Shown here piece by piece: positions 1 through 36,376 of a stretch of 36,376 nucleotides of DNA. Position 1 is the stretch's first letter; every line of letters starts with the position of its first letter. Both the position numbers and the translations under genes were made by a program. Origin of the DNA: a virus; IMG/VR virus record IMGVR_UViG_3300005527_000138, positions 1 through 36,376 of that record; one strand, written 5' to 3'. Below the pieces are notes generated by a model that did not search any database, was not told where the DNA came from, and saw only the letters and a list, made by a program, of their open reading frames with translations.

Positions 1-301
1 TGCGTGAACTGTTCACATCTAAGGCCATTTGGTCAGGTTTTAGGTGCGAATTTGCGTTAATCCATAGCTGATATGCGAACGAATACCGCTCAATTTGTGG
101 TATTCCGGCATTGGTCAGCATGTTAAGTTGAACCAATTTTGCACACGTGCGGACAAACAAAGCCTTACCTGCTTCGCCTAAATTGTCGGGGGGTTGGGGT
201 ATCGAAAGCAAATCTGCCTCCGGTTCGTTCTTTGGTGTTCTGTCTTTGCGTAAAGTTCCCTGGATTGCCTTTATTTTGGTCGGGATTGCGTGCCTACCCA
301 T
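1..301 (-). CDS. Terminase small subunit, second diverged copy (partial, C-terminus cut by window edge)
   Basis: This reading frame starts with ATG at 301 and runs off the left edge after 100 codons, with no stop in between. By hand alignment about 87 of 100 residues match the small terminase at 35850-36296. Residues ~33-85 are almost unchanged in protein while many third codon positions differ, which indicates purifying selection on a real gene rather than noise. The N-terminus differs by a one-codon indel (MGRHAIPTK versus MPKYVPNK). Small terminases recognise phage DNA and guide the large subunit during packaging. It lies downstream of an HNH gene, the usual place for terS in HK97-type phages. 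It could be a tandem duplicate or the strain-variant end of a circular genome. The C-terminal third cannot be seen. Confidence 0.88.
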   Translation of the reverse strand, partial: MGRHAIPTKIKAIQGTLRKDRTPKNEPEADLLSIPQPPDNLGEAGKALFVRTCAKLVQLNMLTNAGIPQIERYSFAYQLWINANSHLKPDQMALDVNSSR

Positions 302-421
302 AGTTCTGGATTTTGACAAGAAACGCGCGTTGGGGCGCACTAGGGTTTTCCGGCAAAACGAAAAAAAACGACCCTCCCCGGTATCGTTTTGACAATTTTT
401 CGCCCATTTTTTGCAATATTT
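302..421. other. Intergenic stretch between HNH gene and terS copy 1
   Basis: This gap of 120 bases has no convincing gene or terminator on either strand. It is rich in A/T runs interrupted by G/C blocks, much like the 80 bases upstream of the other terS copy (36297-36376). In HK97-like phages the packaging start (cos or pac) usually lies next to terS, so this gap and its right-end counterpart are the natural places to look for it. That is inference from position only. Confidence 0.4.
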
Positions 422-805
422 TCATTTTATTAGGCTTTTTATTGCTAAATCCTTATTAGCGGGAATAAAGTTCCCAAAGCTGCCGACGCGGTCGCACGCC
501 CATCCAAGTTTCTCCAATGCGCTCTTTCTATCGTGGCAAGGCTTGCATAGGGTCATAAAGTTAGCAGCGTCCATCCGTGCGCCTCCGGCTGCTACCCTTA
601 CGATGTGGTCGGTAACACCCTTCCAACCTCCTGGGCTTGCATCGGTCAGCGTACCAGATGCGAGGCACATCTCACAAAGCGGGTTGGCTATGCGGTATAG
701 CCTGGATACGTTCGCCCATGTGTTGTTGTACGTGTCTCGTTCGCCTGTTGGCCTTCGTGCCTGGGCTTCGTAGCGCTTACGGGTTTGTTTGGGTAGGCTG
801 GGCAT
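422..805 (-). CDS. HNH endonuclease
   Basis: This 127-residue protein has the HNH zinc-binding layout: CEMC near residues 44-47, a DHIVRV core (~66-71) with the first catalytic His, the Asn in AANFMTLC (~81-88), and CKPCHDRKS (~88-96) carrying the second Cys pair and the final His. The basic N-terminus fits DNA binding. HNH proteins beside the terminase genes of HK97-type phages nick DNA and stimulate terminase cutting, and several are needed for head morphogenesis. The gene overlaps the upstream glycosyltransferase by 29 bases and precedes terS copy 1, which supports the packaging role over that of a free homing endonuclease. The start is ATG. Confidence 0.87.
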   Translation of the reverse strand: MPSLPKQTRKRYEAQARRPTGERDTYNNTWANVSRLYRIANPLCEMCLASGTLTDASPGGWKGVTDHIVRVAAGGARMDAANFMTLCKPCHDRKSALEKLGWACDRVGSFGNFIPANKDLAIKSLIK

Positions 806-1850
806 ACAGTAGGTTAAGACGTTGTTTGTTGACCACGCTTAATACAAGGTTGTTGCTTATGTATTCCTCGCACACATGGTAAGCTTCCCTGTGTCCTATG
901 TCTTTGCCTTCGTCAATGTGTCGGAAGATAGCGGCTAAGCTATCAGCGTTGTGTTCACCGGGTGCGGCTTTCGGGTTGCCGTATTGGATTACACCGGGCA
1001 TATTGAACTCCGGCATGTAGGCAGGGGCAATAGTGGGCGCACCTGATAACATGAACTCCAACATGCTGATATTGGACTTTGCATGATTGAAGGCTACGTT
1101 TTCAAGGCATACGACGCTGTAATCAGGTTGTTCTGCTTTCAATGCCTTGAAATACTTAGCCTGTCCGCGTGTCCAGTCCTTCAATAGCACCTTAGACAAT
1201 TTGCCGCCGTAACGCTCGTACAATGGCCACGGCTCGCTACCTATGAAAAGAAAGTCAAGGTTAGGATAATCGGTGAAAGCATCGCGCAATAACATCAAAT
1301 CTCCCGTATGGGTTTGACTTCCCCTCCAGGCGATCAGCGGACGCGGTGCGAGCTTTCGATATGGTGAACGCTTGTTCCATGCCCAATCAGGCAGGGCATT
1401 GGGTATAACGTGGATTTTATCGCTGGGTGCATAGCCGTAGAATACCAGGGCTTTCTTTAGCGTATTCGTTGACACGCTAACAACGTCCGCCATGCCTAAG
1501 CACGTTTTTAGGCTTTCGGATATGGCTTTCTCTCGAAATATGGCGGCAAACTGATTGGCAGGGGGTATGTGGTTTTCAATAATAAGGTCATCCATATCTA
1601 CCCAAATGCGTGTACCCATTTCTTTAGCGTTTTCCGCTATCTCGCAGGCCGTTGCGTTCATGGGTTGGTGCATCACTAACCAGTCCACGCGGGAAGCGTT
1701 GCCCAGGCCATAACCCATATCATCCACTACTACTATTTCCGGGTCTATCTCTCGCAACCAAGCAAAAGGCCATAAGCGGTAAAATGCTTGTGCGCCCTCG
1801 CTGTCGCCCTTGTGCCAGCTTCCATTTGCCGTTCCTATTTGTATTACCAT
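777..1850 (-). CDS. GT-B type glycosyltransferase (family 4-like)
   Basis: This 357-residue protein looks like a GT-B fold glycosyltransferase. Residues ~150-200 carry the typical linker between the two Rossmann halves (KIHVIPNALPDWAW, then LIAWRGSQTHTGDL). Residues ~255-275 have the nucleotide-sugar region SNISMLEFMLSGAPTIAP, which resembles the EX7E segment of family 4 enzymes. It has no signal peptide or membrane segment, so it should act in the cytoplasm. Its start overlaps the stop of the upstream SAM methyltransferase by 7 bases, so the two are translationally coupled. Phage glycosyltransferases may modify phage DNA, virion proteins or the host surface. The sequence does not say which. 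The coupled methyltransferase suggests a two-step sugar or base decoration. Confidence 0.75.
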   Translation of the reverse strand: MVIQIGTANGSWHKGDSEGAQAFYRLWPFAWLREIDPEIVVVDDMGYGLGNASRVDWLVMHQPMNATACEIAENAKEMGTRIWVDMDDLIIENHIPPANQFAAIFREKAISESLKTCLGMADVVSVSTNTLKKALVFYGYAPSDKIHVIPNALPDWAWNKRSPYRKLAPRPLIAWRGSQTHTGDLMLLRDAFTDYPNLDFLFIGSEPWPLYERYGGKLSKVLLKDWTRGQAKYFKALKAEQPDYSVVCLENVAFNHAKSNISMLEFMLSGAPTIAPAYMPEFNMPGVIQYGNPKAAPGEHNADSLAAIFRHIDEGKDIGHREAYHVCEEYISNNLVLSVVNKQRLNLLYAQPTQTNP

Positions 1851-2425
1851 TGGTCGAATTTTTCAGACTTGAACAACATGCCCCACTCAGTTACTTGTTG
1901 CGCGTCTTGTTTGAATTTAAAGCCGTACTGCGAAAACAGTACTTTCCATGTCTCCTTTTGCTTTATGTTGATGTGCCCCCATGCGGCATCTTGTTCGGGG
2001 GTCGTGGGGTACGGAGTGCTTGTAAAGTACAAATATCCGCAATTTTCGGCTAATTGCGGGATAATCAAAGCTAATTCCTCATCGGTGATATGTTCAAAGA
2101 CTTCAATGCAATAACACGCATCGAATTTGCCGGGCATCTTGAAAGCACCGTCCTTGAGGATGTATCGGTGAGGCTCAACGCCACGGGAAAGCGCAAAATC
2201 CCTTTCATGCGGGTTAATGTCGTAGCCTATCGCGTTCAGGCCTACCCATTGACTGCCTACTAAAAAGAAGCCTAACCCGCTGCCAAACTCGAAGCAAGTT
2301 TCGATCCCCAAACCGTGCTTTAACCAATCGGCCGCACCCCTGTGCAGGCTAACAAGTGCAGGCCAATGGGTAGTTGTAAAGCCCATGCGGACTTGTTCGT
2401 CAAAGAAGTATTTATTATCTACCAT
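1844..2425 (-). CDS. Class I SAM-dependent methyltransferase
   Basis: The 193-residue protein has a class I methyltransferase core: motif I around residues 40-52 (CFEFGSGLGFFLVG), an acidic end of strand 2 (AIGYDINPHERDFA), and the post-I stretch DACYCIEVFEHITDEELA typical of the methyltransferase 11/23 families that act on small molecules or sugars. It lacks the NPPY or PC motifs of DNA methyltransferases. Its last bases overlap the start of the glycosyltransferase at 1850, so the pair forms a cassette. A strong terminator-like hairpin (2441-2465) lies 15 bases before the ATG. The substrate is unknown. A sugar made or transferred by the neighbouring enzyme is a reasonable guess. Confidence 0.8.
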   Translation of the reverse strand: MVDNKYFFDEQVRMGFTTTHWPALVSLHRGAADWLKHGLGIETCFEFGSGLGFFLVGSQWVGLNAIGYDINPHERDFALSRGVEPHRYILKDGAFKMPGKFDACYCIEVFEHITDEELALIIPQLAENCGYLYFTSTPYPTTPEQDAAWGHINIKQKETWKVLFSQYGFKFKQDAQQVTEWGMLFKSEKFDQW

Positions 2426-2436
2426 GTTGTAAATTT

Positions 2437-2465
2437 AAAAAGCCCGGCACAAAGCGCACCGGGCT
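2437..2465 (-). terminator. Rho-independent terminator hairpin before the methyltransferase
   Basis: On the minus strand AGCCCGG and CCGGGCT form a perfect 7-bp stem with an 11-nt loop, followed by TTTT. It sits 18 bases after the stop of the 2483-2800 gene and just before the ATG at 2425, so it either ends the early operon or acts as an attenuator for the methyltransferase-glycosyltransferase pair. Confidence 0.75.
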
Positions 2466-2482
2466 AACAAAGCATAATTCAA

Positions 2483-2800
2483 CTATAACGTATCGTAGAA
2501 CGTATCATCCAGTTTCTTTTGGATTCGATACGCATCATTCAGTAAGTGTACCGCAAATTCTTCTTCGTCGGCTGCCACCGCGTACTGTGGTGCGTCTAAG
2601 AGTTCGGCCAGCAGTTCAAACCTCCAGTCTCGCGGCCGATAATCCTTTCTATCCATCGTATGCCCGTACTTTTTGAATCCTGCCTCCTCGCGGTCGAGGA
2701 TGCGTTCAATAAGCCGTGCTCGTGTCGGGCCATCTGGTTCGTGCTTCTTTAGCAGTTCGATGACCTTTCGTGTATTTTCAGCTAATGGTTCGCGTGTCAT
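2483..2800 (-). CDS. Phage protein of unknown function, weakly MazG/dNTPase-like
   Basis: This 105-residue, highly charged, helical protein has no signal or membrane segment. The stretch KYGHTMDRKDYRPRDW followed by FELLAELLDAPQYAV (residues ~44-75) is reminiscent of small phage proteins related to MazG-like nucleotide pyrophosphohydrolases, which carry acidic helices of the form EELxDA. The EExxE metal-binding set is not complete, so I do not assign an enzyme. It follows the SSB-tailed protein after 2 bases and is the last gene before a terminator, so it belongs to the early DNA-metabolism operon. Confidence 0.6.
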   Translation of the reverse strand: MTREPLAENTRKVIELLKKHEPDGPTRARLIERILDREEAGFKKYGHTMDRKDYRPRDWRFELLAELLDAPQYAVAADEEEFAVHLLNDAYRIQKKLDDTFYDTL

Positions 2801-2802
2801 GG

Positions 2803-3066
2803 TTAAAAGGGTAAATCGTCAATAGGGTCAGCAACCACAACGCCGGGTCGAGGTTGTGCGGGTGCGGTCGTTGTTGCGGGCGCAGTGGCCGCTTTGGGGG
2901 TCGCTTTGATAGAAAAGTATTTTTGTCCGTTCCGCATTTCATTCACCCAGGCAGAAAGGTAGTACTCGACCCCCTCGATAGTGATTTTCCCGGTGTACTC
3001 CGGGTGTTTTTCTGTCTCCCTCTTGTCATTGCGGAAAAGCGCTCCGCTGTTCTTGTTTTCGCTCAT
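2803..3066 (-). CDS. Small protein with an SSB-like acidic C-terminal tail
   Basis: The protein has 87 residues. Residues 1-57 (GALFRNDKRETEKHPEYTG through YYLSAWVNEMRNGQKYFSI) look like a small beta-barrel of the kind common in phage single-strand-binding or DUF736-like proteins. A low-complexity linker of Ala, Thr and Pro follows (58-75), and the chain ends in DPIDDLPF. A flexible linker ending in an acidic DDxPF tip is the hallmark of bacterial SSB, where the tip recruits replication and repair proteins. By architecture this is a candidate compact SSB. It overlaps the stop of the upstream gene by ATGA and sits in the replication operon. It is shorter than a normal SSB (~110 residues in the OB fold), so the fold needs testing. 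Confidence 0.62.
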   Translation of the reverse strand: MSENKNSGALFRNDKRETEKHPEYTGKITIEGVEYYLSAWVNEMRNGQKYFSIKATPKAATAPATTTAPAQPRPGVVVADPIDDLPF

Positions 3067-3278
3067 TGTTTTGTTGGTTTTTTAGCCCCGAATGCATCTC
3101 GGTATGATACCATCCTGTCCGGGGATTGCTTGTAAAATGAAATTGCCTTTTTTTTGCCCATAGGACGAATGGTATCGTCAAAAGAATTATATGTAAAGAA
3201 CGCCATTTCCGGCGTTAAGTACAGTGTGAAAGACCTGCCCTTGCATATAGCTAAGGACGTTTTTACATCATATTTCAT
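3063..3278 (-). CDS. Small hypothetical protein
   Basis: I start this gene at the ATG at 3278 (71 residues, MKYDVKTSLAICKG...). The longer frame upstream would begin with GTG inside the tRNA-like gene and is unlikely. The protein is basic, with alternating hydrophobic segments (SFTLYLTPEMAFFTY) that suggest a small beta sheet, and a basic C-terminus (FGAKKPTKQ). A TATTTTTG box lies just upstream (3291-3298), but no clear -33 element is present. Its stop overlaps the start of the SSB-tailed gene, so they are co-translated. No family recognised. Confidence 0.6.
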   Translation of the reverse strand: MKYDVKTSLAICKGRSFTLYLTPEMAFFTYNSFDDTIRPMGKKKAISFYKQSPDRMVSYRDAFGAKKPTKQ

Positions 3279-3322
3279 TGGCTTTTGGTTCAAAAATACA
3301 AAAAAATTGCCGTCTTTTTGAG

Positions 3323-3415
3323 TGGTCAGGATGAGAGTCGAACTCACTACCTTTGGTTATTGGTTCCGATTTCTCGGATTACGCACCAACGCGCTACCGT
3401 TGCGCCACACTGACC
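3323..3415 (-). tRNA. tRNA-like gene with an expanded anticodon arm (identity unclear)
   Basis: The transcript begins GGTCAGT and ends CCTGACC plus a discriminator A, giving a 6-bp acceptor stem with one mismatch. No CCA is encoded. A good D arm (GCGC, loop AACGGTA, GCGC) and a good T arm (GTGAG, loop TTCGACT, CTCAT) are present, and AGGTA forms a normal 5-nt variable loop. The anticodon stem TTGGT can pair with ACCAA, but 27 bases lie between the strands instead of 7. That insert contains its own hairpin, CCGA-GAAA-TCGG, and a second ACCAA, so no canonical anticodon loop can be assigned. It may be a decayed tRNA, a tRNA mimic, or a tRNA with an insertion. It follows a terminator and precedes a small ORF. 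Confidence 0.7.
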
Positions 3416-3446
3416 AAAAACCGCCCAGCTTTCGAGGCCAGGCGGT
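3416..3446 (-). terminator. Terminator after the 59-residue ORF
   Basis: On the minus strand ACCGCC and GGCGGT form a 6-bp stem extended by an inner TGG-C/G-CTG helix, followed by TTTTT. It lies 19 bases past the stop of the small ORF and directly before the tRNA-like gene. Confidence 0.75.
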
Positions 3447-3465
3447 GGTATGTTCTCATGAATGC

Positions 3466-3645
3466 TTACGCGTTTGCGATTCGCTTGAGGACGGTTTTCA
3501 AAGTACAAGCGCTGTGCATGTCCACGCATGTAACGTCTCCGTTTTCGTTGCGGCCAAGTTTCATGGCGACGATTGCGCCGCCGCAAGCGGTAGTGAAAAC
3601 GTATCCTTGTGCTTCGGCTTGCTTTTTGGTGATTGTGTTTTTCAT
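3466..3645 (-). CDS. Small cysteine-containing hypothetical protein
   Basis: This 59-residue ORF begins with ATG at 3645 (MKNTITKKQAEAQGYVFTTA...) and ends with TAA at 3466. The chain is half helix (basic N-terminus), half probable beta hairpin, with three cysteines (residues ~21, 40, 47) and GRNENGDVTCVDMHSACTLK near the C-terminus. It has its own consensus Bacteroidota promoter (3676-3706) and its own terminator (3416-3446), so it is a single-gene unit, which argues for a real expressed gene despite its size. An overlapping 119-residue frame shares this DNA but runs through the tRNA-like gene and is very basic, so I reject it. No family recognised. Confidence 0.72.
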   Translation of the reverse strand: MKNTITKKQAEAQGYVFTTACGGAIVAMKLGRNENGDVTCVDMHSACTLKTVLKRIANA

Positions 3646-3675
3646 GATGCTTTGTTTTATGCGTTATTGATAGAA

Positions 3676-3706
3676 CAAATATATAACACCTTTTTGACTT
3701 TTTCAA
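3676..3706 (-). promoter_or_regulatory. Bacteroidota-type promoter for the 59-residue ORF
   Basis: Minus strand: TTG (3706-3704), 20 bases, TATATTTG (3683-3676). This matches the Bacteroidota primary sigma consensus, and the predicted start lies about 25 bases before the ATG at 3645. Confidence 0.75.
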
Positions 3707-3736
3707 TACGTTTTCTATATTTTAACTAAAAAAACA

Positions 3737-3766
3737 TAAAAAAAGCCAGCCTAACAATAGACTGGC
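3737..3766 (-). terminator. Terminator after dCTP deaminase
   Basis: Minus strand: GCCAG, 12-nt loop, CTGGC, then a run of seven or eight T. It lies 26 bases beyond the dCTP deaminase stop and separates that gene from the promoter of the 59-residue ORF. Confidence 0.78.
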
Positions 3767-3791
3767 CTAATCAGGTCATGCAAATAACGAA

Positions 3792-4379
3792 CTATGGCTT
3801 TGGGTCTGTGCCTCGCAACTTCTGCCATAGTTTTGAGGGTTGCGGTTTGGGGTCGTTCCAGGCGGTGGTATAGCTTGAAGCTTTGCGCTCCAGGTAATTG
3901 GTGGTAGGCAGGCTTTTGGGTTCATGGAAACTTAACTGACATATCGGAATCCCGGCATATACCCGCACGGGTTGAGCAACCGTCAACTCAAGCGTCCAAT
4001 GCCCCTCGAAGCCTATGTCTCCAAAGCCTGCATCGTGTACGCTGATACCCAGGCGGGCAATAGACGATTTCCCGTGCATGATAGGCACGTGTTTGCGTGT
4101 CTTTGTCCTTTCGGTCGTGGATGCAAGGTACACCCGGTTCGGCCATAGGATAAGCCCGTCCGCGCCGATTTCTTTATAGGTCAAATCCGGCGGAAAACGC
4201 ACGTCCATTACCCCTTCCGGGTTGCCCATGAAATCCTCATGCTTTCCCTCCAGGGTGATAATGAATGGCGACAAATGCAAGTCAACAGAATTGACCCCTA
4301 TCGCGTCGAAGTTCAGCGGGTCTATGACAATATCCCCTTTTTCAATAGAACTAATAATATCGTCGTGGGTAAGTATCAT
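3792..4379 (-). CDS. dcd: dCTP deaminase (dUTPase superfamily)
   Basis: I start at ATG 4379 (MILTHDDIISSIEKGDIVI), giving 195 residues, the normal length. The longer frame adds 17 residues that read through a terminator. Family features: IGVNSVDLHLSP near residue 30, HGKSSIARLGISVHDAGFGDIGFEGHWTLEL (residues ~101-131; the Ser-Ser-x-Ala-Arg nucleotide-binding motif and the Glu of the EG pair), and IPICQLSFHE. The enzyme deaminates dCTP to dUTP in the cytoplasm, feeding dUMP for thymidylate synthesis. This pairs with the ThyX-like gene at 12001-12717. Terminators lie on both sides, so it forms its own transcription unit. Confidence 0.88.
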   Translation of the reverse strand: MILTHDDIISSIEKGDIVIDPLNFDAIGVNSVDLHLSPFIITLEGKHEDFMGNPEGVMDVRFPPDLTYKEIGADGLILWPNRVYLASTTERTKTRKHVPIMHGKSSIARLGISVHDAGFGDIGFEGHWTLELTVAQPVRVYAGIPICQLSFHEPKSLPTTNYLERKASSYTTAWNDPKPQPSKLWQKLRGTDPKP

Positions 4380-4398
4380 TTTGTTTTTTTTCGGATTA

Positions 4399-4428
4399 AA
4401 AAACGGGCGGGGCGCTGATGCCCCACCC
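4399..4428 (-). terminator. Terminator ahead of dCTP deaminase
   Basis: Minus strand: GGGTGGGGC and GCCCCGCCC make a 9-bp stem with one G-T pair and a 6-nt loop, then GTTTTTT. It ends the upstream microprotein operon. The deaminase ATG is 20 bases further on, so read-through or attenuation is possible. Confidence 0.8.
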
Positions 4429-4562
4429 AAGACGTATGAAATCTCAAATCACTTGTAAGTTAGCCCGGCACACTGACGCTGAAAGGGTTGTTTACCTATT
4501 TTCCCGTAACAAAAAATGCATAAAATCGAAAACCCTTCCCCCGTGTTCCGTCGGGCTTATCT
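4429..4562. other. Gap between microprotein operon and terminator
   Basis: These 134 bases have only very short frames (for example 9 codons from an ATG at ~4520). No consensus promoter was found. Confidence 0.4.
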
Positions 4563-4679
4563 TTACGGCTTTTGCCGCTTTCGTTCTTCGTCCTTTGACA
4601 AAGGTAAAATCAGGTAAATGGCCACCATGCCATAAGCAAAGGCCAGGGCGATCAGAATTTTGATAGCACTAATCAGCAT
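4563..4679 (-). CDS. 38-residue membrane microprotein B
   Basis: ATG at 4679, TAA at 4563. The protein (MLISAIKILIALAFAYGMVA then IYLILPLSKDEERKRQKP) is one transmembrane helix of ~26 residues followed by a short charged tail, so its C-terminus should be cytoplasmic by the positive-inside rule. Its start overlaps the stop of microprotein A by 11 bases. The overlap, the same length and the same helix-plus-charged-tail design suggest that the two work as a pair, as holin-antiholin or spanin-like pairs do, but the position far from the endolysin argues against a core lysis role. No family recognised. Confidence 0.6.
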   Translation of the reverse strand: MLISAIKILIALAFAYGMVAIYLILPLSKDEERKRQKP

Positions 4680-4785
4680 CCTTCGTCTTTTTTGGTTTGC
4701 TATTTGCAAGGTATGCGATAAACATGCCGACGATCACAAAATAACAAATCATTATGAGGGCAATAACATCAATCAGGGTATCCAT
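4669..4785 (-). CDS. 38-residue membrane microprotein A
   Basis: ATG at 4785, TAG at 4669. The sequence starts MDTLIDVIALIMICYFVIVG and continues with MFIAYLANSKPKKTKDAD: a single transmembrane helix and a basic, then acidic, tail. It overlaps the end of the 4769-5041 gene by 17 bases and the start of microprotein B by 11 bases, so the three are translationally coupled. The gene is too short for default gene finders. Function unknown. Membrane-located host takeover or superinfection exclusion is possible but not shown. Confidence 0.6.
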   Translation of the reverse strand: MDTLIDVIALIMICYFVIVGMFIAYLANSKPKKTKDAD

Positions 4786-5041
4786 TGATTTCATTTAAAG
4801 CGTGGGCAATTTTGGTTCTTTCGTCACCGTTTGTCGTTGTTTCCAAGTGCCAATTTAACGCTTTTTTTAGAACGTCAAGGCATATTTTTCTACCGTTTGT
4901 TCCGGGTTGTGTCAATTTAGGGTGTATCCTGTCGTAAATGCGTTTCCAGTACGTTACCATGTAATGTTTTCTCGTGCCGTGAAATACACTATCGTAGGCA
5001 TACGCCCACTCCGCCGGGGTGCGTTCGCGTTCATTACTCAT
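4769..5041 (-). CDS. Hypothetical protein
   Basis: A 90-residue soluble protein with no signal or membrane segment. It is rich in aromatic and basic residues (AEWAYAYDSVFHGTRKHYMV), then a helical C-terminal half (KICLDVLKKALNWHLE, TKIAHALNEINGY). It follows the secreted protein at 5034-5375 with an 8-base overlap and precedes two membrane microproteins. I do not recognise the family. Confidence 0.6.
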   Translation of the reverse strand: MSNERERTPAEWAYAYDSVFHGTRKHYMVTYWKRIYDRIHPKLTQPGTNGRKICLDVLKKALNWHLETTTNGDERTKIAHALNEINGYPD

Positions 5042-5375
5042 TGTTACCTGCGTTTTTGACCTTCATTTTGTAGGCGGGCATGTAGTCAAAGTACTTCGCG
5101 CCGCTGTACACGATGTACCGCACTTCGTCAAAGACGATTGTGATGCGTTCGCCTGCCTTGACCGGGCAATCCGACGGCAATATCAGCAGGTAGTTCGTAC
5201 CGTTGCTGTCCTGTGCATCGGTAAAGTAGTAGCTACTTCCGGCGATACCGGGCAAAACAAGCGTTTGAAGCCTTGAGGCGTACACCGTGGCATCAACGGT
5301 TGGCGGTTGCGGCTTCGTGTGCGCGGTGAATGGCAGGATAGCCATTGCGAGAATCAACAAAGCAAAGTTTTTCAT
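5034..5375 (-). CDS. Secreted hypothetical protein with signal peptide
   Basis: The 113-residue protein begins with a clear Sec signal peptide (MKNFALLILAMAILPFTAHT, probable cleavage near residues 19-21). The mature part is beta-rich: VDATVYASRLQTLVLPG, then TNYLLILPSDCPVKAGERI and RYIVYSGAKYFDYM. That pattern could be a small OB- or immunoglobulin-like barrel. It contains one cysteine. It sits in the DNA-metabolism operon between a RuvC-like gene (ATGA overlap) and a membrane microprotein group, so this is an envelope-directed block among cytoplasmic genes. A role in superinfection exclusion or envelope change is possible. No family recognised. Confidence 0.62.
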   Translation of the reverse strand: MKNFALLILAMAILPFTAHTKPQPPTVDATVYASRLQTLVLPGIAGSSYYFTDAQDSNGTNYLLILPSDCPVKAGERITIVFDEVRYIVYSGAKYFDYMPAYKMKVKNAGNNE

Positions 5376-5881
5376 TTAGAATTGCGTTTAGTGATTAAAT
5401 AATTAGTATATCCGATAAGCCCTATTTTAAGGGCATCCCGTTCGTCCTGCGACGTTTGAGGCAACTTTATCCCGTACTGCGCCGCTACGTGCGCCGCGTT
5501 TCTTGTATTCCATTTCACGCCCTTTTGAGCGGGGGATACTTCAAGTACCCTATCGTGGGTAAAGTAGTACACCAACATATCAACAACGGCCTGCGAAATG
5601 CCCTGATTCGCCCCTACGTTGCGGCTAATCTTCTTCAACTGTGCCGCGTTGCCCTTGTAATGGGCGAACGTGGCGTTTTGCAGGTTCGAGTTTTCGACCG
5701 CCCAGTACAAGTTTTCATCGTGTATCCGTGCCTGGCAAAAGTCTATGAAGTTGTAAAAGCGGGCGAAGCGGTAAAAGTTTATGGTCTCCAGCGCTTCATG
5801 TTCGTTGTATATCAGTTCACACGCGGCAAAGCCTTTTACGCGCAGGGATGGGTCAAGTCCGATTATTCGTAATGGCGTCAT
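5372..5881 (-). CDS. RuvC-like Holliday junction resolvase
   Basis: The 169-residue protein has the RNase H-fold nuclease acidic set of RuvC: GLDPSLRVKGFA (first Asp at ~residue 10), AVENSN (Glu at ~63) and DERDALKIG (~146-154). The length fits the RuvC family (~170). It would cut four-way junctions or branched DNA made during recombination-dependent replication, and clear them before packaging. It overlaps the upstream 5878 gene and the downstream secreted protein by 4 bases each. The recombinases at 13354-14935 probably supply its substrates. Confidence 0.72.
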   Translation of the reverse strand: MTPLRIIGLDPSLRVKGFAACELIYNEHEALETINFYRFARFYNFIDFCQARIHDENLYWAVENSNLQNATFAHYKGNAAQLKKISRNVGANQGISQAVVDMLVYYFTHDRVLEVSPAQKGVKWNTRNAAHVAAQYGIKLPQTSQDERDALKIGLIGYTNYLITKRNSK

Positions 5882-6228
5882 GGCTTCAGTTTTAGGCGCT
5901 CCATAATTTGTTCAGCGCACCTTGAGGCGATAACGGAGCAGAGTACCTCATGCCCACAGTCCGTATCCTCATCTTGGAGGATAAACTTTACAATCTGCTC
6001 GATTTCTTCTTTTGTTCCCAAAACCTTCGGCCTTTTTTCCAAAGAATTATCCCATTTTTCAGCAGACTCTGTCTGTTCAATAAGACAAGATTCGCCAGTG
6101 TAACTCACCCAGAAACCGCCTGTATGAATATGAGGCTCCCTTTCGAATGCCATCTTTTGACCGTAACTATCTACAGCCACGTATTGCGCCCAGTCGGGGA
6201 TATTTCGCCAGTTATGTTTTGTTTTCAT
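5878..6228 (-). CDS. Hypothetical protein
   Basis: 116 residues. The N-terminal part has WRNIPDWAQYVAVDSYG and a FEREPHIHTGGFWV stretch, a Trp-rich pattern seen in many small phage proteins of unknown role. The gene at 8545-8898 begins in a similar way (WRDMPELFITLEHEGK). The C-terminal half is acidic and helical (KEEIEQIVKFILQDEDTD, CAEQIMERLKL). It is coupled to both neighbours by 4-base overlaps. Confidence 0.6.
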   Translation of the reverse strand: MKTKHNWRNIPDWAQYVAVDSYGQKMAFEREPHIHTGGFWVSYTGESCLIEQTESAEKWDNSLEKRPKVLGTKEEIEQIVKFILQDEDTDCGHEVLCSVIASRCAEQIMERLKLKP

Positions 6229-6980
6229 TGTACTTGATTTTTCGATTCAAAAAAGTGCTGCCAAACCACCAACTTCTTCGAGATGCTTATTGCCCGCGCT
6301 TCAACTGTGTGTCCCTCCTCAAGTAGCCTCAAGGCGTGGCGATAAGCAAATATGTTGGAGTGTTCGCCGGCCTCCTTCGCCACTTCGTTAGAAGCAATCT
6401 CTTTGGCCTTTTCAAATACGGCCTTCTTGGTGGCCGTGTCCGGTTCTGCCATAAGACCCAGGCGTATCGCGCTTTCGTACCAATGCGGGGGTATGTCCTG
6501 CCATTCCCCGGTAAAGTTGTTGAGCAGCGACGGGAAGGCCTTATCGTACTCGGCTTTTTTCGCGGCCTGTGCCTCTGCCTCCTCTTGGATGCGTTCGGCT
6601 TCGTGCCTTGCCCTCAAGATTGCGGCGGCGGTATCGCGGCGATACTCAACGTAAGCCGTTAGCACTTCGCCTAATGTCTTTAAATTCAAACGGGCGTAGA
6701 ACTTGCTATCTACCTCTAACGTGCCATCAGCATAAAGCTGAAAGGCAGTAATTATTTCGTTTGCGCCTATGGATGCAAACCGCTTTTGCACAGTATCAAC
6801 GGCAATCGCCAGGGCGTCCGGTGCGGGGCTTTCTAAGCCCATCGTAGAACACACCGCCGTGATTGCGCGGGTGATAGCTTGACGGGCTTCGCCTTGCTCC
6901 ATGCGGCGTATCGGCATTTCCATACCGCGTTGTACAATGGCGGTAATATTGTTGGGTATGTATTCAGCGGGGAGCAGCAT
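6225..6980 (-). CDS. Hypothetical protein with coiled coil
   Basis: I start at the ATG at 6980 (MLLPAEYIPNNITAIVQRG), giving 251 residues and a 17-base overlap with the zinc-finger gene. The longer frame lies inside that gene. Residues ~10-95 form a helical domain with an AITRAITAV helix. Residues ~110-160 are a charged coiled coil (ILRARHEAERIQEEAEAQAA). The C-terminal third is helical. There are no catalytic motifs and no membrane segments. Its place in the replication operon suggests a DNA-related or scaffold role. No family recognised. Confidence 0.6.
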   Translation of the reverse strand: MLLPAEYIPNNITAIVQRGMEMPIRRMEQGEARQAITRAITAVCSTMGLESPAPDALAIAVDTVQKRFASIGANEIITAFQLYADGTLEVDSKFYARLNLKTLGEVLTAYVEYRRDTAAAILRARHEAERIQEEAEAQAAKKAEYDKAFPSLLNNFTGEWQDIPPHWYESAIRLGLMAEPDTATKKAVFEKAKEIASNEVAKEAGEHSNIFAYRHALRLLEEGHTVEARAISISKKLVVWQHFFESKNQVQ

Positions 6981-8898: not shown

Positions 8899-8914
8899 AC
8901 GTCTCAATTTTTGT

Positions 8915-8945
8915 CAAAGATATACAATGTATTGATACCAACAAA
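8915..8945 (-). promoter_or_regulatory. Consensus Bacteroidota promoter
   Basis: Minus strand: TTTG (8945-8942), 19 bases, TATCTTTG (8922-8915). This is a full match to the TTTG-N19-TAnnTTTG consensus, with the predicted start ~10 bases before the ATG at 8898, leaving a very short leader. Confidence 0.82.
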
Positions 8946-9523: not shown

Positions 9524-10408
9524 TTATGGGTTTAACAAATCCTCTATCCCACTCCCCTGCATGACCGCGTCGTGCAACTCCTTTTGCGCAATGCGGTGCT
9601 TGTTGACCGCTATGATAATACTTTGGGCTTTGCTGTACAGGATAGTCGGCTCGAAGTTGCCCTTTATGAATTTATCCCCGTGCTGCCAGGCCGCATCCAG
9701 GTACGCCTGCCAGTCGTTCAGTGGATCGCCCGCACCCGGCATACCCTTTGCCCACTTTATCCAGGTGGCGATTGCCTTCGCGTCTTTGCCGCTCATCTCG
9801 AAGTTGCCGTTTGTGTTGCGGCTCATAGGTATCCCTTTACCTTCGCAAAACTTCGCGTAGGCTTCGAAAAGGGTGTAAATCTGATTCGGGGCTTTGTCTT
9901 TGGGGGGGGTCGCGCGCAACCTGGGGGGGGGTGGGGTTTCGGGTTGTTTAGTGGGGATGGGTTCGCCGTTTTCGTAAAATTCATTTGCTACTTCGCCCAC
10001 GGTCTCCCTGTATTCTACGTTAGTAGAATACATATCCTCAACTGTATTATTAACTGTATTATTATGTTCCCGTTTTCGGGTAGTCTGCTTTCCCTTTTTT
10101 GATAAATCCGCTTTCCCGTTTTCGGTAAAGCAGATTTCCCGATGTTGGGAACGAAGCCCCCTATTTCGCCCGTCGAAGTACACCTGTTTGATATATCCTC
10201 GCTTCTTTAAGTCGGTCAAAATGTTGGCTATCCTGCTTTCTGATAGCTGAAAGAAGTCGGCAAAGTACTTGTTCGACGCAAAGCATCCGCGTTCCGGGCT
10301 ATTGTCAAGGCTGTCAATTTCGATTAACAAACACTTTTCCACCAGGGATAAGTCTTTGTGCAACCAAATCTCTTTGGGTATCCATACCCCTTTAAAGTCA
10401 CGTGCCAT
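9524..10408 (-). CDS. Replication initiation protein with N-terminal winged helix
   Basis: 294 residues. The N-terminal ~90 residues (FKGVWIPKEIWLHKDLSLVE then KCLLIEIDSLDN, GCFASNKYFADFF, SESRIANILTDLKKRGYIKQVYF) form the helix_turn_helix_36 domain of phage replisome organisers. A low-complexity linker (~110-170) rich in T, N, P and E follows. It includes a PPPPRLRATPP segment coded by runs of 9 and 8 C. The C-terminal ~120 residues (NQIYTLFEAYAKFCEGKGI..., WQAYLDAAWQHGD) are a helical domain of unknown contact, perhaps for helicase loading. No helicase or primase gene was found, so it probably recruits host enzymes. A duplicated regulatory leader lies upstream. Confidence 0.75.
   Translation of the reverse strand: MARDFKGVWIPKEIWLHKDLSLVEKCLLIEIDSLDNSPERGCFASNKYFADFFQLSESRIANILTDLKKRGYIKQVYFDGRNRGLRSQHREICFTENGKADLSKKGKQTTRKREHNNTVNNTVEDMYSTNVEYRETVGEVANEFYENGEPIPTKQPETPPPPRLRATPPKDKAPNQIYTLFEAYAKFCEGKGIPMSRNTNGNFEMSGKDAKAIATWIKWAKGMPGAGDPLNDWQAYLDAAWQHGDKFIKGNFEPTILYSKAQSIIIAVNKHRIAQKELHDAVMQGSGIEDLLNP
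9902..9930 (-). repeat. Two homopolymer tracts (G8 and G9) in the replication gene linker
   Basis: On the plus strand there are runs of 8 G (9902-9909) and 9 G (9923-9931), followed by a further GGGG. In the coding strand they are C runs that encode prolines in the linker. Runs this long are prone to slippage, either in replication or in transcription. Confidence 0.8.
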
Positions 10409-11821: not shown

Positions 11822-11842
11822 ACGTCTTTCTATTTGTTTCTG

Positions 11843-26624: not shown

Positions 26625-26625
26625 G

Positions 26626-30466: not shown

Positions 30467-31804
30467 TTACACCGCGTCGGTGATGTCTGCGTCCTTGATT
30501 GCGGCCATTGATGCGGCGTGGCGCAACGCTGCATCCCACCAGGAGTTTACCACGATGGTAATCAGCGCGTTCTTTGCGCTCGTGTACGGGTCAATCACGA
30601 TGTCAAGGCCCGCCCATTGGCCGAGAATCAACTCGTTGAAGTTACCGAACAGGACGGCGTGAAGGTTCGTACCCTGTCCTTTGGTCAGGTTGGAAGGTAC
30701 TTGAGTGGACACAAAGGCGCGGTATCCGTTCAGCACGTCCACGCGGGCTGTGTTGGCTGCCGGGGTCGGCCCGTCCATCCAAACGAATTGCGCCGTACCG
30801 GATGCCTTTTCGGTTTTCTTCAGGTAGCCCCGAACGCCCGGAGTGGTCAGGTAGGCCAGACTTCCGAAGTCGGCATTGTCAACCGCAACCTCCGTTTCCA
30901 GGTCAACGATTTTACCCCAGGTCAGCGGGCCGCCGTCCGTGCCACAGGCAACGCTTCCGATGCCGTTGGTATTGAGGATACCCGTAATAAGCTGCGTTGC
31001 GCCGTCGCCGTTAATCAGCGCGTAATCGAGCGCTACGTTAATGGCGTTGTTGAGGCGTTCCCGGACAAAGTTTTCCACGTCAATGGAACTTTGTACCATC
31101 AGCTGTTTGGAAATGTCGGTGAACGCGCCCAGGCGGTTGGGGCTCATCTGGATGCGGTCGAAGGTCGGAGAGGTCTCCGCGTTCGCGTCGTTTTCGCCTT
31201 CCCATACCGCCGTTGCAGCTGCGTCGTTGCGCGGGAAATCGATGTTACCCGTCAGGCCGGTCAGGACAGTAGCGCCCGCATTGATTACCGCCAGACGCGG
31301 GTCAAGGAACGGGATAAGCGCCCCCAACTCAGTGGGAACGGTGTACCCACCCGCCGTGGTAGTACCTGCCGTCATGTCTCGCTTGTGCATCCCGCGTTTG
31401 GTCAGCATTGTGGGAATGTAGAGGTTGCCCGTCGGGGTAATGCCTGCCGCCCGGAACTCGCGTTCCGCTTCCTGGCTCATTTCGGCTTCGATGCCGTCCA
31501 GGTTTTTGCCGGAGGCTGCCATGCGAACGGCGCGAAGGAAGGAGTACTGTTCCTGTGCCTTTTGTTCCGGCGTGGCCTGGGGCTGCTTTGCACGGGATAC
31601 CGTTACAGCCTGACGTGCTTGTTCAGCTTCGGCGGCTTCGGCCAGTTGGATATCCGTGTCGAGGTTTTGGATTTCGCCTTTCAGTTTCAAGGCGTTGCTG
31701 CGCTGCTCCTCGGTCAGCATCGCATTGGCAGCCTGTGCGGAAATGGCCGTCAATTCGTCCATCTTTGCCCCGCGCTGCTGCTTCAATTCATCGCTGCGCT
31801 TCAT
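30467..31804 (-). CDS. Major capsid protein (HK97 fold) with N-terminal scaffold domain
   Basis: 445 residues. Residues ~1-125 are charged and helical (ELKQQRGAKMDELTAISAQA, NLDTDIQLAEAAEAEQARQA), the delta scaffold region removed by the protease. The mature part has ITPTGNLYIPTMLTKRG, TTAGGYTVPTELGALIPFLD, GALTxxSxQL-like FTDISKQLMVQSSIDVENFV, and a C-terminal LDIVIDPYTSAKNALITIVV typical of HK97 capsids. It builds the icosahedral head. It is coupled to the protease by a 4-base ATGA overlap. Confidence 0.95.
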   Translation of the reverse strand: MKRSDELKQQRGAKMDELTAISAQAANAMLTEEQRSNALKLKGEIQNLDTDIQLAEAAEAEQARQAVTVSRAKQPQATPEQKAQEQYSFLRAVRMAASGKNLDGIEAEMSQEAEREFRAAGITPTGNLYIPTMLTKRGMHKRDMTAGTTTAGGYTVPTELGALIPFLDPRLAVINAGATVLTGLTGNIDFPRNDAAATAVWEGENDANAETSPTFDRIQMSPNRLGAFTDISKQLMVQSSIDVENFVRERLNNAINVALDYALINGDGATQLITGILNTNGIGSVACGTDGGPLTWGKIVDLETEVAVDNADFGSLAYLTTPGVRGYLKKTEKASGTAQFVWMDGPTPAANTARVDVLNGYRAFVSTQVPSNLTKGQGTNLHAVLFGNFNELILGQWAGLDIVIDPYTSAKNALITIVVNSWWDAALRHAASMAAIKDADITDAV

Positions 31805-32697
31805 GCTTTTTGTTTGTTAAGTTGTAGAATATCCGCAAGCAGTTGCGGGAAGTCTTTATCAGCTACGCCTTGTGGCGTTGATTGTGCTTGTAATGCCCGT
31901 GCGGTTACGCTCGTTTGTTTGTACGCCGGATATGTTACCGGGGAAACGTCATAAAGTACATCTACCTGGTCAATACGTCGCTTTGGCTTTCTGCCATTTT
32001 CGTAATATGTCCAGGTATCCTTTCGGATAGTGAAAGCAAACGAAGATTGCGAGATAATCCCGCTGCGTATCATCTTGAGTAAGTCGTTGCCAAACGTCGT
32101 ATCCGGTGCTTCAAAACGGTATCGTAGCCCTTTGCCGTCAACCTCTAATTCCAGCGTACCATTTGAGGTACGGGCCAGCGGGAAATTAGGGTCGTGATTA
32201 AACAGCGCAACTACGTCCGTATCATCCGCGCCGTCAAAAGCACCCTCTGCTATTTCCTCATCGTATCCCCCCAAGTCGGTGGATGCGTTGAAAATAGCCG
32301 CATAGCCTTCGACGGTACGGCCTTCGGGCATAGCCCGGAGTTCGAGTTTATATGTGCGCCGCTCTATTTCGGTCGGCAGTTGCTTTTCTTCCATTTCGTT
32401 TACTGTTTTTTTAGCCCATTCTAACATTGCATCGCCGCCCCATGCGTCGTACATCACGCTGCCGCACACTTCGTTGCCGTCTGCGTCGGTGTAGCTTCCT
32501 GTGTCGTACACCTTTGCACGGCTAAGAAAAGAATACGTCCTTACAACCGTGTCATGGCTTATCGTCTCCCGGCTTGCCAACTGATTAGCCCGCTGCCAAC
32601 CAACCGCCGTACCGCAATCGCTGCCGTTTTCGTCTCGGTGCTTCAACGCCCGCTTTGCGTTATTCGTGGCAGCTTGTGGGTAGTTATCGTATGGCAT
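31801..32697 (-). CDS. HK97 prohead protease with N-terminal extra domain
   Basis: 298 residues. The C-terminal ~180 residues are the serine protease: EGYAAIFNASTDLGGYDEEI, then ALFNHDPNFPLAR with the catalytic His, and SGIISQSSFAF with the catalytic Ser. The N-terminal ~100 residues (AKRALKHRDENGSDCGTAVG, WQRANQLASRETISHDTVVR, YSFLSRAKV, YDAWGGDAMLEWAKK) form a separate domain found fused to or beside proteases in many phages, of unknown role. The protease cleaves the scaffold part of the capsid protein and itself. It follows the portal gene by 2 bases. Confidence 0.9.
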   Translation of the reverse strand: MPYDNYPQAATNNAKRALKHRDENGSDCGTAVGWQRANQLASRETISHDTVVRTYSFLSRAKVYDTGSYTDADGNEVCGSVMYDAWGGDAMLEWAKKTVNEMEEKQLPTEIERRTYKLELRAMPEGRTVEGYAAIFNASTDLGGYDEEIAEGAFDGADDTDVVALFNHDPNFPLARTSNGTLELEVDGKGLRYRFEAPDTTFGNDLLKMIRSGIISQSSFAFTIRKDTWTYYENGRKPKRRIDQVDVLYDVSPVTYPAYKQTSVTARALQAQSTPQGVADKDFPQLLADILQLNKQKA

Positions 32698-32699
32698 GG

Positions 32700-33947
32700 C
32701 TATTGGGTTTGGGTTTGCGTATCCGTTGCCTGTGTGCCTTGTGCGCCTGCGTCTGTGCTATTGGATGCAAGTGGCATACCGAACACATCGCCACCCTCGT
32801 ACGGGTTCATGTTTTCAAGTGCGCGTATTTCGTTGGGGCTGATCGCTCGGATATTGTAAAGCGCGGTGTAATATTCAGCTCGGCTTCGTGTATCGCCTCG
32901 CAAAAGTCCGTCCAGGTTGAAGCGCACAAAGGTTAATCCGGTTTGATTGTACCCAAACAACTTAGAATTGAACTCGCTTTCAAACCGCTTACACCATGCC
33001 CGCAAAGTGTATTGCACAAACAAGCGGTTAAGTACTTCCAGGTTATTGAGGGGTGTTCCGTCGGATGCTGCAAGCAAGGGGAGAGGTACACCCAGGATAT
33101 TAGCAACATCCTCAACGGTCATTTTGCGGCTTTGCAGGTCGGAACTGTCAAGGCGTGTGCCTATGCTTTTATATTTTACCCCGTGGGATAGCAGGGCTGT
33201 TTTGCCCTGGTTGGCAATGCCTGCATAGTTTTTGTTCCAGCTTTCCTCAAGTTCTTTGCGTTGTGCCAAGTTCAAAGGGGTATCCGTCTCCAGGATACCG
33301 GATATAGAAGCACCATTTTTGTAAAAGTCGCTATACGTTAGCAGTTCGGATATACCACGCTTAAAAGTGCTATTGAGCAGGTTCAGCGGGTTTTCGCCGT
33401 TTTCGCCGTCGCGTGTCCAGGCCTTCAAGTGGATGATATCGGCAATAGGGTAGGCCTTTTCGCCGATGATGTAGAACATGCCCGTTTCCAGTTCTATGAG
33501 TTGATACGGTTCGTCAACAATATCGAACATGGCGACCGCGCCGCGATTGTCGCGGATGATTTCGATTAGGCAGTTACCAGGGCCATATCCTTTGTTTCCG
33601 GTCAGGATAGTGCGAACAACCGCCTCCATGAATGAAAAGCAATCGTACTCCGGGGAAGGACGGAAGTTCAACAACCGCCAAACCGGGTTGGTGCGCGCCT
33701 CCTGGATGCTCCCGTCTGATGCGACGGTATAGACGTTGAAAGGCAGCGAGGCCATTTGCGTGGCTATCAAGTCAACTGCACGGAAATAAGCGGGGATTGA
33801 GAGGATAGTTTTGCCCGTTACAGCAACCTCTTTGCCAGCGATGTTGCCAAGTAAAGATTGCCACAACGTCCAATCCTTAGCAGGGCCTAAGTTGGAAATC
33901 TTGCTGCGAAATATCCGCTGTAAAGTCCGTGTAAAGATGTTAGCCAC
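32700..33947 (-). CDS. Portal protein
   Basis: I start at GTG 33947 (MANIFTRTLQRIFRSK by initiation), giving 415 residues. The longer frame starts at TTG within the terminator region. Features: LSIPAYFRAVDLIATQMASL, NPVWRLLNFRPSPEYDCFSF, NGASISGILETDTPLNLAQR and VANILGVPLPLLAASDGTPL, which match HK97-type portals (phage_portal family), and an acidic C-terminus (EGGDVFGMPLAS). It forms the 12-fold ring for DNA entry and exit. A terminator and a weak CACCTTTG box lie upstream. Confidence 0.9.
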   Translation of the reverse strand: MANIFTRTLQRIFRSKISNLGPAKDWTLWQSLLGNIAGKEVAVTGKTILSIPAYFRAVDLIATQMASLPFNVYTVASDGSIQEARTNPVWRLLNFRPSPEYDCFSFMEAVVRTILTGNKGYGPGNCLIEIIRDNRGAVAMFDIVDEPYQLIELETGMFYIIGEKAYPIADIIHLKAWTRDGENGENPLNLLNSTFKRGISELLTYSDFYKNGASISGILETDTPLNLAQRKELEESWNKNYAGIANQGKTALLSHGVKYKSIGTRLDSSDLQSRKMTVEDVANILGVPLPLLAASDGTPLNNLEVLNRLFVQYTLRAWCKRFESEFNSKLFGYNQTGLTFVRFNLDGLLRGDTRSRAEYYTALYNIRAISPNEIRALENMNPYEGGDVFGMPLASNSTDAGAQGTQATDTQTQTQ

Positions 33948-33996
33948 GGCGCAAAGGTGCAAGGGTTTTTTGTAGAAAAGTGTTAACAAAGTAAAC

Positions 33997-34023
33997 AAAA
34001 AAGCCCCACCGAAAAGGCAGGGC
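33997..34023 (-). terminator. Terminator between packaging genes and portal
   Basis: Minus strand: GCCCTGCC, TTTTC loop, GGTGGGGC (8 bp with wobble pairs), then TTTTTT. It lies 28 bases after the 34052 gene stop. It could limit read-through so that capsid genes are controlled apart from the terminase genes. Confidence 0.78.
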
Positions 34024-34051
34024 GAAAACCACTTTTAAAAACCGATAAAAC

Positions 34052-34291
34052 CTATCTCTTTACTTTGCTTTTTCTTTTAGCTTCAACCTGCAAAAGCACA
34101 ACATAGCGCCGTCGCATTACCCGGAATATCCCATAGTCAGCATACCGATTAGCCCCAAACAATTCGTAGAACTCCCGTTCGATAGCCTCATACGCTGCCA
34201 GGCCGCTGTTATACTTCGGGAAAATCTCAAAGTAGTATTCAAAGTACCCACGAAATGAGTACAGGCGTTTCACTTGTTTTAGTTCATCCAT
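34052..34291 (-). CDS. Hypothetical protein after the large terminase
   Basis: 79 residues: YSFRGYFEYYFEIFPKYNSG, AAYEAIEREFYELFGANRYA, FRVMRRRYVVLLQVEAKRK. Small basic-aromatic proteins of this type are common beside terL or portal genes in Bacteroidota phages. It overlaps the terL stop by 1 base, so translational coupling is expected. Possible packaging cofactor; unproven. Confidence 0.62.
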   Translation of the reverse strand: MDELKQVKRLYSFRGYFEYYFEIFPKYNSGLAAYEAIEREFYELFGANRYADYGIFRVMRRRYVVLLQVEAKRKSKVKR

Positions 34292-35853
34292 CAGAAGTAG
34301 CTTATCATGTTGCCAATATCAAAGGTAGGGTTTTCTTTGTCATACTCCTGCATTGCCCATACCGCGTTCACGGCTGCCATAATACCGTCAATTTTGCCTT
34401 TGCTTTTGCCCTTGTGCGGTCGTATGTTGTTGTTGCTGTCTCGGAAAATCTGCGTATTGTCCAAGTTCCATGCCACCACCGGATTGCCGTCGTGAAATAG
34501 CTTTTTGCCGACGGTCAACTGCTCGAAATACTTTGAGGGTTCGGATAGGTTGCTAAGGCTTTGCTGGCATTTCTTTACAGGTATGCTGTTTCTGGTGTAC
34601 AGTTCGGCTGCGAAATTGTCCGCTGTCCAGGGGTCGAAAGCAAGGCCCTGCAATGTGTATTGCCCGGCTGCTCGAAGGATATCCCCGCGTATCGTCTCCA
34701 GGTCTTGCACGTTACCAGGCGTTGCGCTTATCCATCCTTCGTCGTTCCATGCTAAGTAATTGGCGTTTTCTTTGCGGTCGCGGTCGTGTATCGTTTCTTC
34801 AGGGCAATAGGTCGTAACTTTCAGATACAGAGTACCGTCCTGCAACCTCCAAAGGTAGGCCAGGGCGCTCAAGTCCTGCGTACTGGCTAAGTCAAGGCCC
34901 ATAAACAGTTCTGCCATTTGCAGTTCTTCTTCCGGTATCTGCTTAACGTTTTTATCCCACACGTGGCCCGGTATCCAGCTTTCGGTCGCACCCGTCCAGA
35001 TGTTGAGGTGCAAACGTTTGAAAGAGTTTAGCGCCGACGGTTGGCTTTTGGCTTCGTTGCTAAGCAGGGCGAAGTTTTCCGCGTCTATGATATTGCCCAT
35101 GCCTGGATTAGCCTTCGCCCATACTGATGGGTCGAAAGGGTCATCGTCCTGCGATGCGTTGTAAATCACAGGTAGCCATGCGGGGTTTTTGACTTTGCCG
35201 CGTCGGATTAGCTCGGCCTCATCGTGTATCTGTTCGGCAAACGTATTCTTTACCCCTGCCGTTGTAATCATCCAACACATGCTATTCCAGCGCTTAATCA
35301 TGCCGCGGGTCAGCGTGTCGTATAGTTCACGGTTGGGCTGCACGTGCAATTCATCGAACATGATTGCGTAAGGCCTATACCCGTGTTTTGAATACGCCTC
35401 GGCTGATATTACCTTAATCGTCGAACTGCTTTTGGTGTGAACTATCGAGTTCTTGAATACCTTGCAAGCGGCTGATAGGGTAGGGTCAGCGGCTATCATT
35501 TCGCGGCATGTGTCGAAGATGATACGGGCTTGTTCCCGATCCCCTGCAACGCAATACACCTCCGCATTATGTTCACCGTCGGCAATGGCCATGTATAAAG
35601 TGATAGCGGATAACAGAAAAGACTTCCCGTTACCCTTTGGCAGTTCGACGTAACAAAACCGCTTTTCCCTGTATCCGTCGGGTCTCATAGTGCCGAAGGC
35701 CGGGTAGATAATATCGCGTTTCTGCCATTCCTCCAACATAAAAGGTTTGCCTGCTAAATCGCCGTGCAAGTGCTTGCAAAAGCGTTCGATAAAGCGCACA
35801 ACGCGCTCGCCTTTGGCCTGGTCATATATTCGCTTTTGCTTTTTCAAGGTCAT
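34291..35853 (-). CDS. Terminase large subunit
   Basis: 520 residues. ATPase half: Walker A variant VELPKGNGKSFLLSA (~residues 69-83), Walker B plus catalytic Glu YAIMFDELHVQ (~160-170), and a TTAGVKN segment after it. Nuclease half: FMGLDLASTQDLSALAYLW (~314-332, first Asp), and a late GKIDGIMAAVNAVWAM (~483-498, last Asp). This is the HK97-like TerL that pumps DNA into proheads and cuts it. It overlaps terS by ATGA. Confidence 0.95.
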   Translation of the reverse strand: MTLKKQKRIYDQAKGERVVRFIERFCKHLHGDLAGKPFMLEEWQKRDIIYPAFGTMRPDGYREKRFCYVELPKGNGKSFLLSAITLYMAIADGEHNAEVYCVAGDREQARIIFDTCREMIAADPTLSAACKVFKNSIVHTKSSSTIKVISAEAYSKHGYRPYAIMFDELHVQPNRELYDTLTRGMIKRWNSMCWMITTAGVKNTFAEQIHDEAELIRRGKVKNPAWLPVIYNASQDDDPFDPSVWAKANPGMGNIIDAENFALLSNEAKSQPSALNSFKRLHLNIWTGATESWIPGHVWDKNVKQIPEEELQMAELFMGLDLASTQDLSALAYLWRLQDGTLYLKVTTYCPEETIHDRDRKENANYLAWNDEGWISATPGNVQDLETIRGDILRAAGQYTLQGLAFDPWTADNFAAELYTRNSIPVKKCQQSLSNLSEPSKYFEQLTVGKKLFHDGNPVVAWNLDNTQIFRDSNNNIRPHKGKSKGKIDGIMAAVNAVWAMQEYDKENPTFDIGNMISYF

Positions 35854-36296
35854 ACTAAATCAAATTCGTCTTCTTCTTTTGCCTCTTTCTTTTCAACGTT
35901 CGCCCATTGCACCTTGTTTTGGCTCATCGGTGATAGCCCCCATCTATCCTCAAACTCTTGCATCATCTTATGACTGTCCTTCAATATATTGAACCACGTG
36001 CGGGCGCTACCTGCGTCCAGGGCCATTTGGTCGGGTTTTAGCTGTGAATTTGCGTTAATCCACAACTGATATGCAAACGAATACCGCTCGATTTGGGGTA
36101 TTCCTGCATTGGTCAACATGTTAAGCTGAACCAATTTCGCGCATGTGCGAACAAATAGCGCTTTGCCCGCTTCGCCTAAATTGTCGGGGGGTTGAGGGAT
36201 TGAAGGTAAATCCGCCTCTGGTTCATTTTTCGGAGCGCGATGTTTTCGAAGCGTTCCCTGGATGGCTTTGATTTTATTGGGCACATATTTAGGCAT
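35850..36296 (-). CDS. Terminase small subunit
   Basis: 148 residues. KIKAIQGTLRKHRAPKNEPE at the N-terminus, then PDNLGEAGKALFVRTCAKLV, NMLTNAGIPQIERYSFAYQL, and ARTWFNILKDSHKMMQEFED toward the C-terminus match P27-type phage small terminases, with a helix-rich DNA-binding N-terminal half and an oligomerisation part. The last residues are acidic (KKEAKEEDEFDLV). It recognises the packaging site. A second, diverged copy begins at the left end (1-301). Confidence 0.87.
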   Translation of the reverse strand: MPKYVPNKIKAIQGTLRKHRAPKNEPEADLPSIPQPPDNLGEAGKALFVRTCAKLVQLNMLTNAGIPQIERYSFAYQLWINANSQLKPDQMALDAGSARTWFNILKDSHKMMQEFEDRWGLSPMSQNKVQWANVEKKEAKEEDEFDLV

Positions 36297-36376
36297 ATTG
36301 CAAAATTTGTCAAGCGTTGGCAGTTTTTGGGAGGGGTTGGCAGAAAATTGGGGTTTTGGCCCGAAATGCGCGGAGG
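36297..36376. other. Sequence upstream of terS at the right edge
   Basis: These 80 bases hold no terminator or consensus promoter. On the minus strand they are open in the terS frame from the edge to the ATG. If the two window ends were joined, terS copy 1 would read in frame through this stretch into copy 2. That may be chance. Confidence 0.35.

Follow-up and report, generated by a model that had tools for sequence, protein, structure and literature searches.

Introduction

The cohesive (cos) ends of phage HK97 are 10-nt 3' overhangs, cleavage at its cos site is stimulated by the HNH endonuclease gp74, and the small terminase subunit (TerS) of this phage binds at +15..+29, with a key G at position 21 and an adjacent A-tract (PMC9410871, PMC11331095). 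Between lambda and N15, a mismatch of the cohesive ends is tolerated (PMC4669245).

The 36,376-nt stretch of viral DNA analysed here (the window) contains a Terminase_4 TerS, followed by a TerL with ATPase and nuclease domains, a portal protein, an S78 protease and an HK97 capsid protein (Table 1), and as judged from its sequence this packaging module belongs to the known HK97-type cos kind. The order HNH - cos - terS - terL - portal - S78 protease - capsid is as in HK97 (gp1 TerS, gp2 TerL, gp74 HNH). A 10-nt 3' overhang, read from the contig ends of the marine relatives and predicted for the window, would be a further likeness, and the A-tract near +20 is within the region bound by HK97 TerS. 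The likeness is one of shared protein families and gene order, and binding and cleavage are predicted. The names "freshwater" (for the close relatives of the window) and "marine" refer here to two groups and are not derived from sample metadata. At the right genome end, the HNH gene is adjacent to cos in the window and also in L108, L121, L152 and L154. Unlike in HK97, a ParB-like/DNA methyltransferase gene is present between the left cos end and terS in L095 (L095:49-1224) and in the marine L108 (L108:1195-2388); this gene is absent from the window.

The window and its relatives also resemble the terS-cosB specificity variants of lambda, 21 and N15 (PMC4669245), in having interchangeable packaging genes, differing TerS proteins and cohesive ends with few differences. 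However, lambda-type systems have 5' overhangs and no HNH partner, whereas in the window a Terminase_4 TerS is combined with an HNH partner, and the overhang is predicted to be 3'.

Table 1. Packaging genes and predicted cos elements of the window.
Feature	Position	Strand	Remarks
Left genome end, strain A	36297..36376	(-)	begins CCTCCGCG at 36376; leader ahead of terS
Predicted TerS site, strain A	+15..+29 = 36362-36348	(-)	A-tract 36357-36354
terS, intact, strain A	35850-36296	(-)	148 aa; PF05119 (Terminase_4) E=5e-9, PHROG 83
terL	34291..35853	(-)	520 aa; 4-nt overlap with terS stop; TerL_ATPase + TerL_nuclease; PHROG 9 E=2e-142
Portal protein	32700..33998	(-)	PF04860 E=9e-73
Prohead protease S78	31801..32697	(-)	PF04586 E=3e-43
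HK97-fold major capsid protein	30467..31804	(-)	PF05065 E=2e-40
HNH endonuclease	422..805	(-)	PF01844 E=6e-6, PHROG 589 E=4e-18; last right-arm gene (HK97 gp74 position)
Right genome end, strain A	344..421	(-)	non-coding; conserved GGGGAGGGTCGTTTTTTTTCG stretch common to L008
Predicted cosN, 10-nt 3' overhang	334..343	(-)	CTAGTGCGCC; strain A in L003: CCAGTGCGCC; homology with marine relatives
Left genome end, strain B	302..333	(-)	begins CCAACGCG at 333; leader ahead of terS'
Predicted TerS-binding A-tract, strain B	314-311 (+20..+23)	(-)	register from left-end comparison
terS', strain B	301-1	(-)	first 100 codons, stopped by window edge; from translation

Results

Two terS alleles in one record

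Diverged copies of terS are present at both ends of the window and on the same strand, as had been described in an earlier note on this DNA. Both are recovered when the record is searched with TerS (100% and 91% over residues 5-99), and at the DNA level they form a repeat of 260 nt with 82% identity. Of the 91 core codons that align, 84 encode identical residues, at 80% nucleotide identity, and the differences by codon position are 10/3/42, corresponding to a dN of 0.049 and a dS of 2.4 (saturated), with a ratio of about 0.02. This low ratio points to purifying selection on both alleles, which is in agreement with the statement of the note that the protein core is nearly invariant while the silent sites differ, and the two copies are, on this evidence, two functional alleles. 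It is also correct that the frame stays open for 27 codons when the ends are joined head to tail (the ORF 35850-36374 runs open to the edge), but such an open frame arises by chance in about 1 in 10 cases (frame match 1/3 x ~0.27), so it is weak evidence. The bases 36376 and 333 are homologous and correspond to each other as the left genome termini of two strains.

A single terS in each contig

A search of viral contigs (IMG/VR) gave six relatives of the window. One of these, L003, is identical to the window over the 4,625 bp of its left arm (window 36376..31752, into the head genes), and in the right arm (6253..334) there is one mismatch in 5,920 bp, at position 342, where the window has a T and L003 has a C; this position is inside the predicted overhang. 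By these matches, L003, which is from another sample, and the window belong to one strain (strain A), and the gene order of L003 is HNH - cos - single intact terS - terL. In L006, positions 1-333 match window 333..1 exactly. From there L006 reads on through a single, complete terS to a terL of its own, in a region that is about 90% identical in DNA to the window, and it is by this comparison the representative of a second strain, B. The search of related genomes for two terS genes before terL gives one Terminase_4 gene in each of the relatives examined (20/20). TerS relatives were not found in public phage records, and in genome contigs neither a close prophage nor a host was found, the TerL matches there being only 24-55% identical and mostly in Bacillota assemblies.

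Coincident contig starts at the probable left genome end

The right-hand edge of the window (36376) and the starts of six other contigs coincide at one homologous base, upstream of terS. Two octamers are found at this start, CCTCCGCG in the window, L005 and L095, and CCAACGCG in L006, L007, L094 and L099. In L095 the start lies upstream of the ParB/methyltransferase gene that precedes terS, and the DNA past the shared start in L094, L095 and L099 is unrelated to that of the window. L005, L007 and L099 have neighbouring sample numbers and are possibly from one study. L004 begins 7 nt further inward than the shared base. L003 and L008 read across the site, as does the window at its left edge, with GTGCGCC followed by CCTCCGCG, CACAAGCG or CCAACGCG. 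The coincident contig ends suggest that the genome has unique physical ends, located between HNH and terS. At their far ends, the long contigs close to the window do not stop at a genome terminus.

The left ends also share a predicted TerS-binding feature, as shown when comparing the close relatives with the distant marine-type group: the motif AAAA is at +20..+23 in 25 of the 26 left ends. Among 62 more distant TerL relatives, only five show CAAA at +19, and in another group it lies at +24. The +19/+20 register of the A-tract is thus, in the sequences compared, a feature of this group and not of all relatives.

Length and polarity of the overhang

The distant marine-type relatives, found by scanning with TerS of the second class, have the gene order HNH - cos - terS - terL, in some cases with the methyltransferase between cos and terS. 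An intact marine site is present in L108, which reads GGTAAT-CGTTGATGGC-CTTTATCG. Marine left-end contigs begin at CTTTATCG or variants of it, and marine right-end contigs (L166, L170, L173 and L154) terminate at GTTAAT, GTAAT or GTAAC; the right-end records include the 26.8-kb L166/L152 and the 25.5-kb L154. The right and left contig ends are exactly 10 nt apart. The absence of these 10 nt from the marine contig ends fits with the removal of a 3' overhang in end repair.

The 10 nt are retained in a few contigs with additional tails. The 3' end of L165 has the 10 nt followed by the pyrimidine tail CCTTCTCCTTCTCTCC, and at the 5' ends of L107, L116, L120 and L126 the 10 nt are preceded by purine-rich runs. 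Single-strand library kits add low-complexity 3' tails (PMC6511391), and the tails of L165, L107, L116, L120 and L126 are probably such library-kit tails, which would place the 10 nt at a 3' end. More generally, the adapter TCTTCCGATCT (L107, L270) or low-complexity tails are seen fused to the cohesive end at the 3' end of L165 and at the 5' ends of L107, L116, L120, L126, L131, L136 and L270.

The marine 10-nt gap, combined with homology, gives CTAGTGCGCC (343..334) as the predicted overhang of the window. A 10-nt 3' overhang is therefore predicted, for the marine relatives from the contig ends and for the group of the window by homology. Right-end contigs of the freshwater type were looked for with HNH, where a first scan yielded no more than two close relatives, and with a DNA pattern of the conserved right-end stretch, by which these two contigs were recovered again; none was found. 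A GCGC-N6-GCGC dyad at the site had been considered as a 4-nt 5' overhang and was dropped, as the marine right ends show the 10-nt gap.

Evidence for exchange of terS between relatives

L094 and L095 have a TerS of another class: that of L094 (L094:33-530) is 23% identical to TerS of the window, and that of L095 (L095:1211-1690) has no tblastn match with the window TerS as query. The TerL proteins of L094 and L095 are 93-97% identical to that of the window, the portal proteins 99% and the capsid proteins 94-97%. In L095 the final codons of terS (GAATTTGA..GTATGACC) are where homology to the window sets in, and the DNA beyond is about 91% identical. The left-end octamer is independent of the TerS class, as CCTCCGCG and CCAACGCG each occur with both classes. 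Clearly common to both classes is only the C-terminal tail EFD(I/L), which may be a contact with TerL or the trace of a recombination joint. The replacement is bounded by cos on one side and by the terS/terL overlap on the other side. These comparisons are evidence for a cos-to-terS cassette swap, in which terS would be exchanged as a block between relatives.

Discussion

The window is very probably the nearly complete linear, cos-type genome of strain A, read through cos into the left end of strain B. The genome of strain A would then extend from the left cos end at 36376 to the right end at about 344, plus the 10-nt cohesive end, with a unit length of about 36,043 nt, overhang included. The assembly would have crossed cos (343-334) on the HNH side and entered the first 333 bp of the co-occurring strain B, the join being made by the assembler or by local read-pair extension in sequence common to both strains near cos. 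TerS would bind at +15..+29, and HNH and TerL would cut the two strands, as in HK97. Cos is crossed in the window, L003 and L008, and some DNA in those samples was thus joined at cos, which counts to some extent against this reading.

The earlier note had left the choice between a natural tandem terS pair before terL in one genome, giving mixed small-terminase rings, and a strain mosaic at a variable terS. The tandem pair would be in agreement with the conservation of both copies at the protein level and with their common frame if joined, but terS' is ended at codon 100 by the window edge, without a natural stop, and the supposed junction coincides with the base where six other contigs begin. 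Moreover, HNH is joined to a single terS in the near-identical L003, terS' is complete and single in L006, and the relatives have one Terminase_4 gene each; a duplication is for these reasons extremely improbable. The mosaic is supported at the contig level, with the two versions found on different molecules in L003 and L006. The part of that proposal in which the assembly of a circular genome broke at terS is only partly right, since the break at 36376 is assigned to the left cos end of a linear genome. In a further explanation there is no physical terminus (a headful or circular genome) and the break is an ordinary one in the de Bruijn graph. It is true that terS varies between strains, that assemblies often break at such sites and that L003 and L008 cross the site; such breaks are however sample- and k-mer-dependent, and would neither align starts at one homologous base across samples and unrelated downstream DNA, nor separate right from left ends by an unvarying 10 nt, with remnants of adapters or tails attached to the overhang. 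This explanation is very unlikely.

A better but still unlikely alternative is that the join is a real hybrid, in which the right end of A was annealed to the left end of B, during a mixed infection or in the DNA extracted from virions, and then assembled. The overhangs of A and B agree at 9/10 bases, the sole right-arm difference between the window and L003 is inside the predicted overhang, and the A-type arm reaches 343; a mismatch between the cohesive ends of lambda and N15 is compatible with viability, and the progeny can include both alleles (PMC4669245). Nevertheless, sequence near cos that is common to relatives, as seen from the long identical runs in L008, suffices for a switch by the assembler, and the extension is just 333 bp, about one read-pair insert. 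A strain switch by the assembler in the shared sequence near cos is favoured over the hybrid joint.

It is an unlikely but conceivable extension of the hybrid joint that the A-right/B-left junction in the window is a genuine joint of cohesive ends, formed in a mixed infection, and that such joints drive the swapping of terS. Annealing at cos would then supply one crossover in the absence of homology, the other being supplied by recombination within the near-identical terL, such that terS and the adjacent binding site would move as a cassette. If true, this would explain how a 23%-identical TerS can be next to a TerL of 93-97% and a portal protein of 99% identity. Independent of the mechanism, terS swaps beside a conserved terL are natural hybrids, which raise the questions of how much packaging specificity sits in TerS and whether TerL tolerates an unrelated TerS.

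With the reading of the window as strain A continued into strain B, a false tandem-gene claim is removed and the physical ends of the genome of an uncultivated phage would be located exactly. It also indicates that cos sites, and even the length and polarity of the overhang, can be recognised from the ends of metagenome contigs, and adapter and tail remnants in public viral contigs could be mined to read cos overhangs.

Other features of the window

The sequence TTTCAATACnTTTTATATnTTTGC is present in four copies, at 3701-3724 (+), 8914-8937 (-), 11842-11865 (-) and 15008-15031 (+), where none is expected by chance. It resembles the -33/-7 promoters of Bacteroidota (TAnnTTTG), which suggests a Bacteroidota host. 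Three direct repeats of about 23 bp (10067-10147) lie within the replication-initiator gene (9524-10408) and are possibly the iterons of a lambda-O-like origin. The right arm also has, immediately upstream of HNH, a glycosyltransferase gene, 777-1850 (-), of PHROG 7162.
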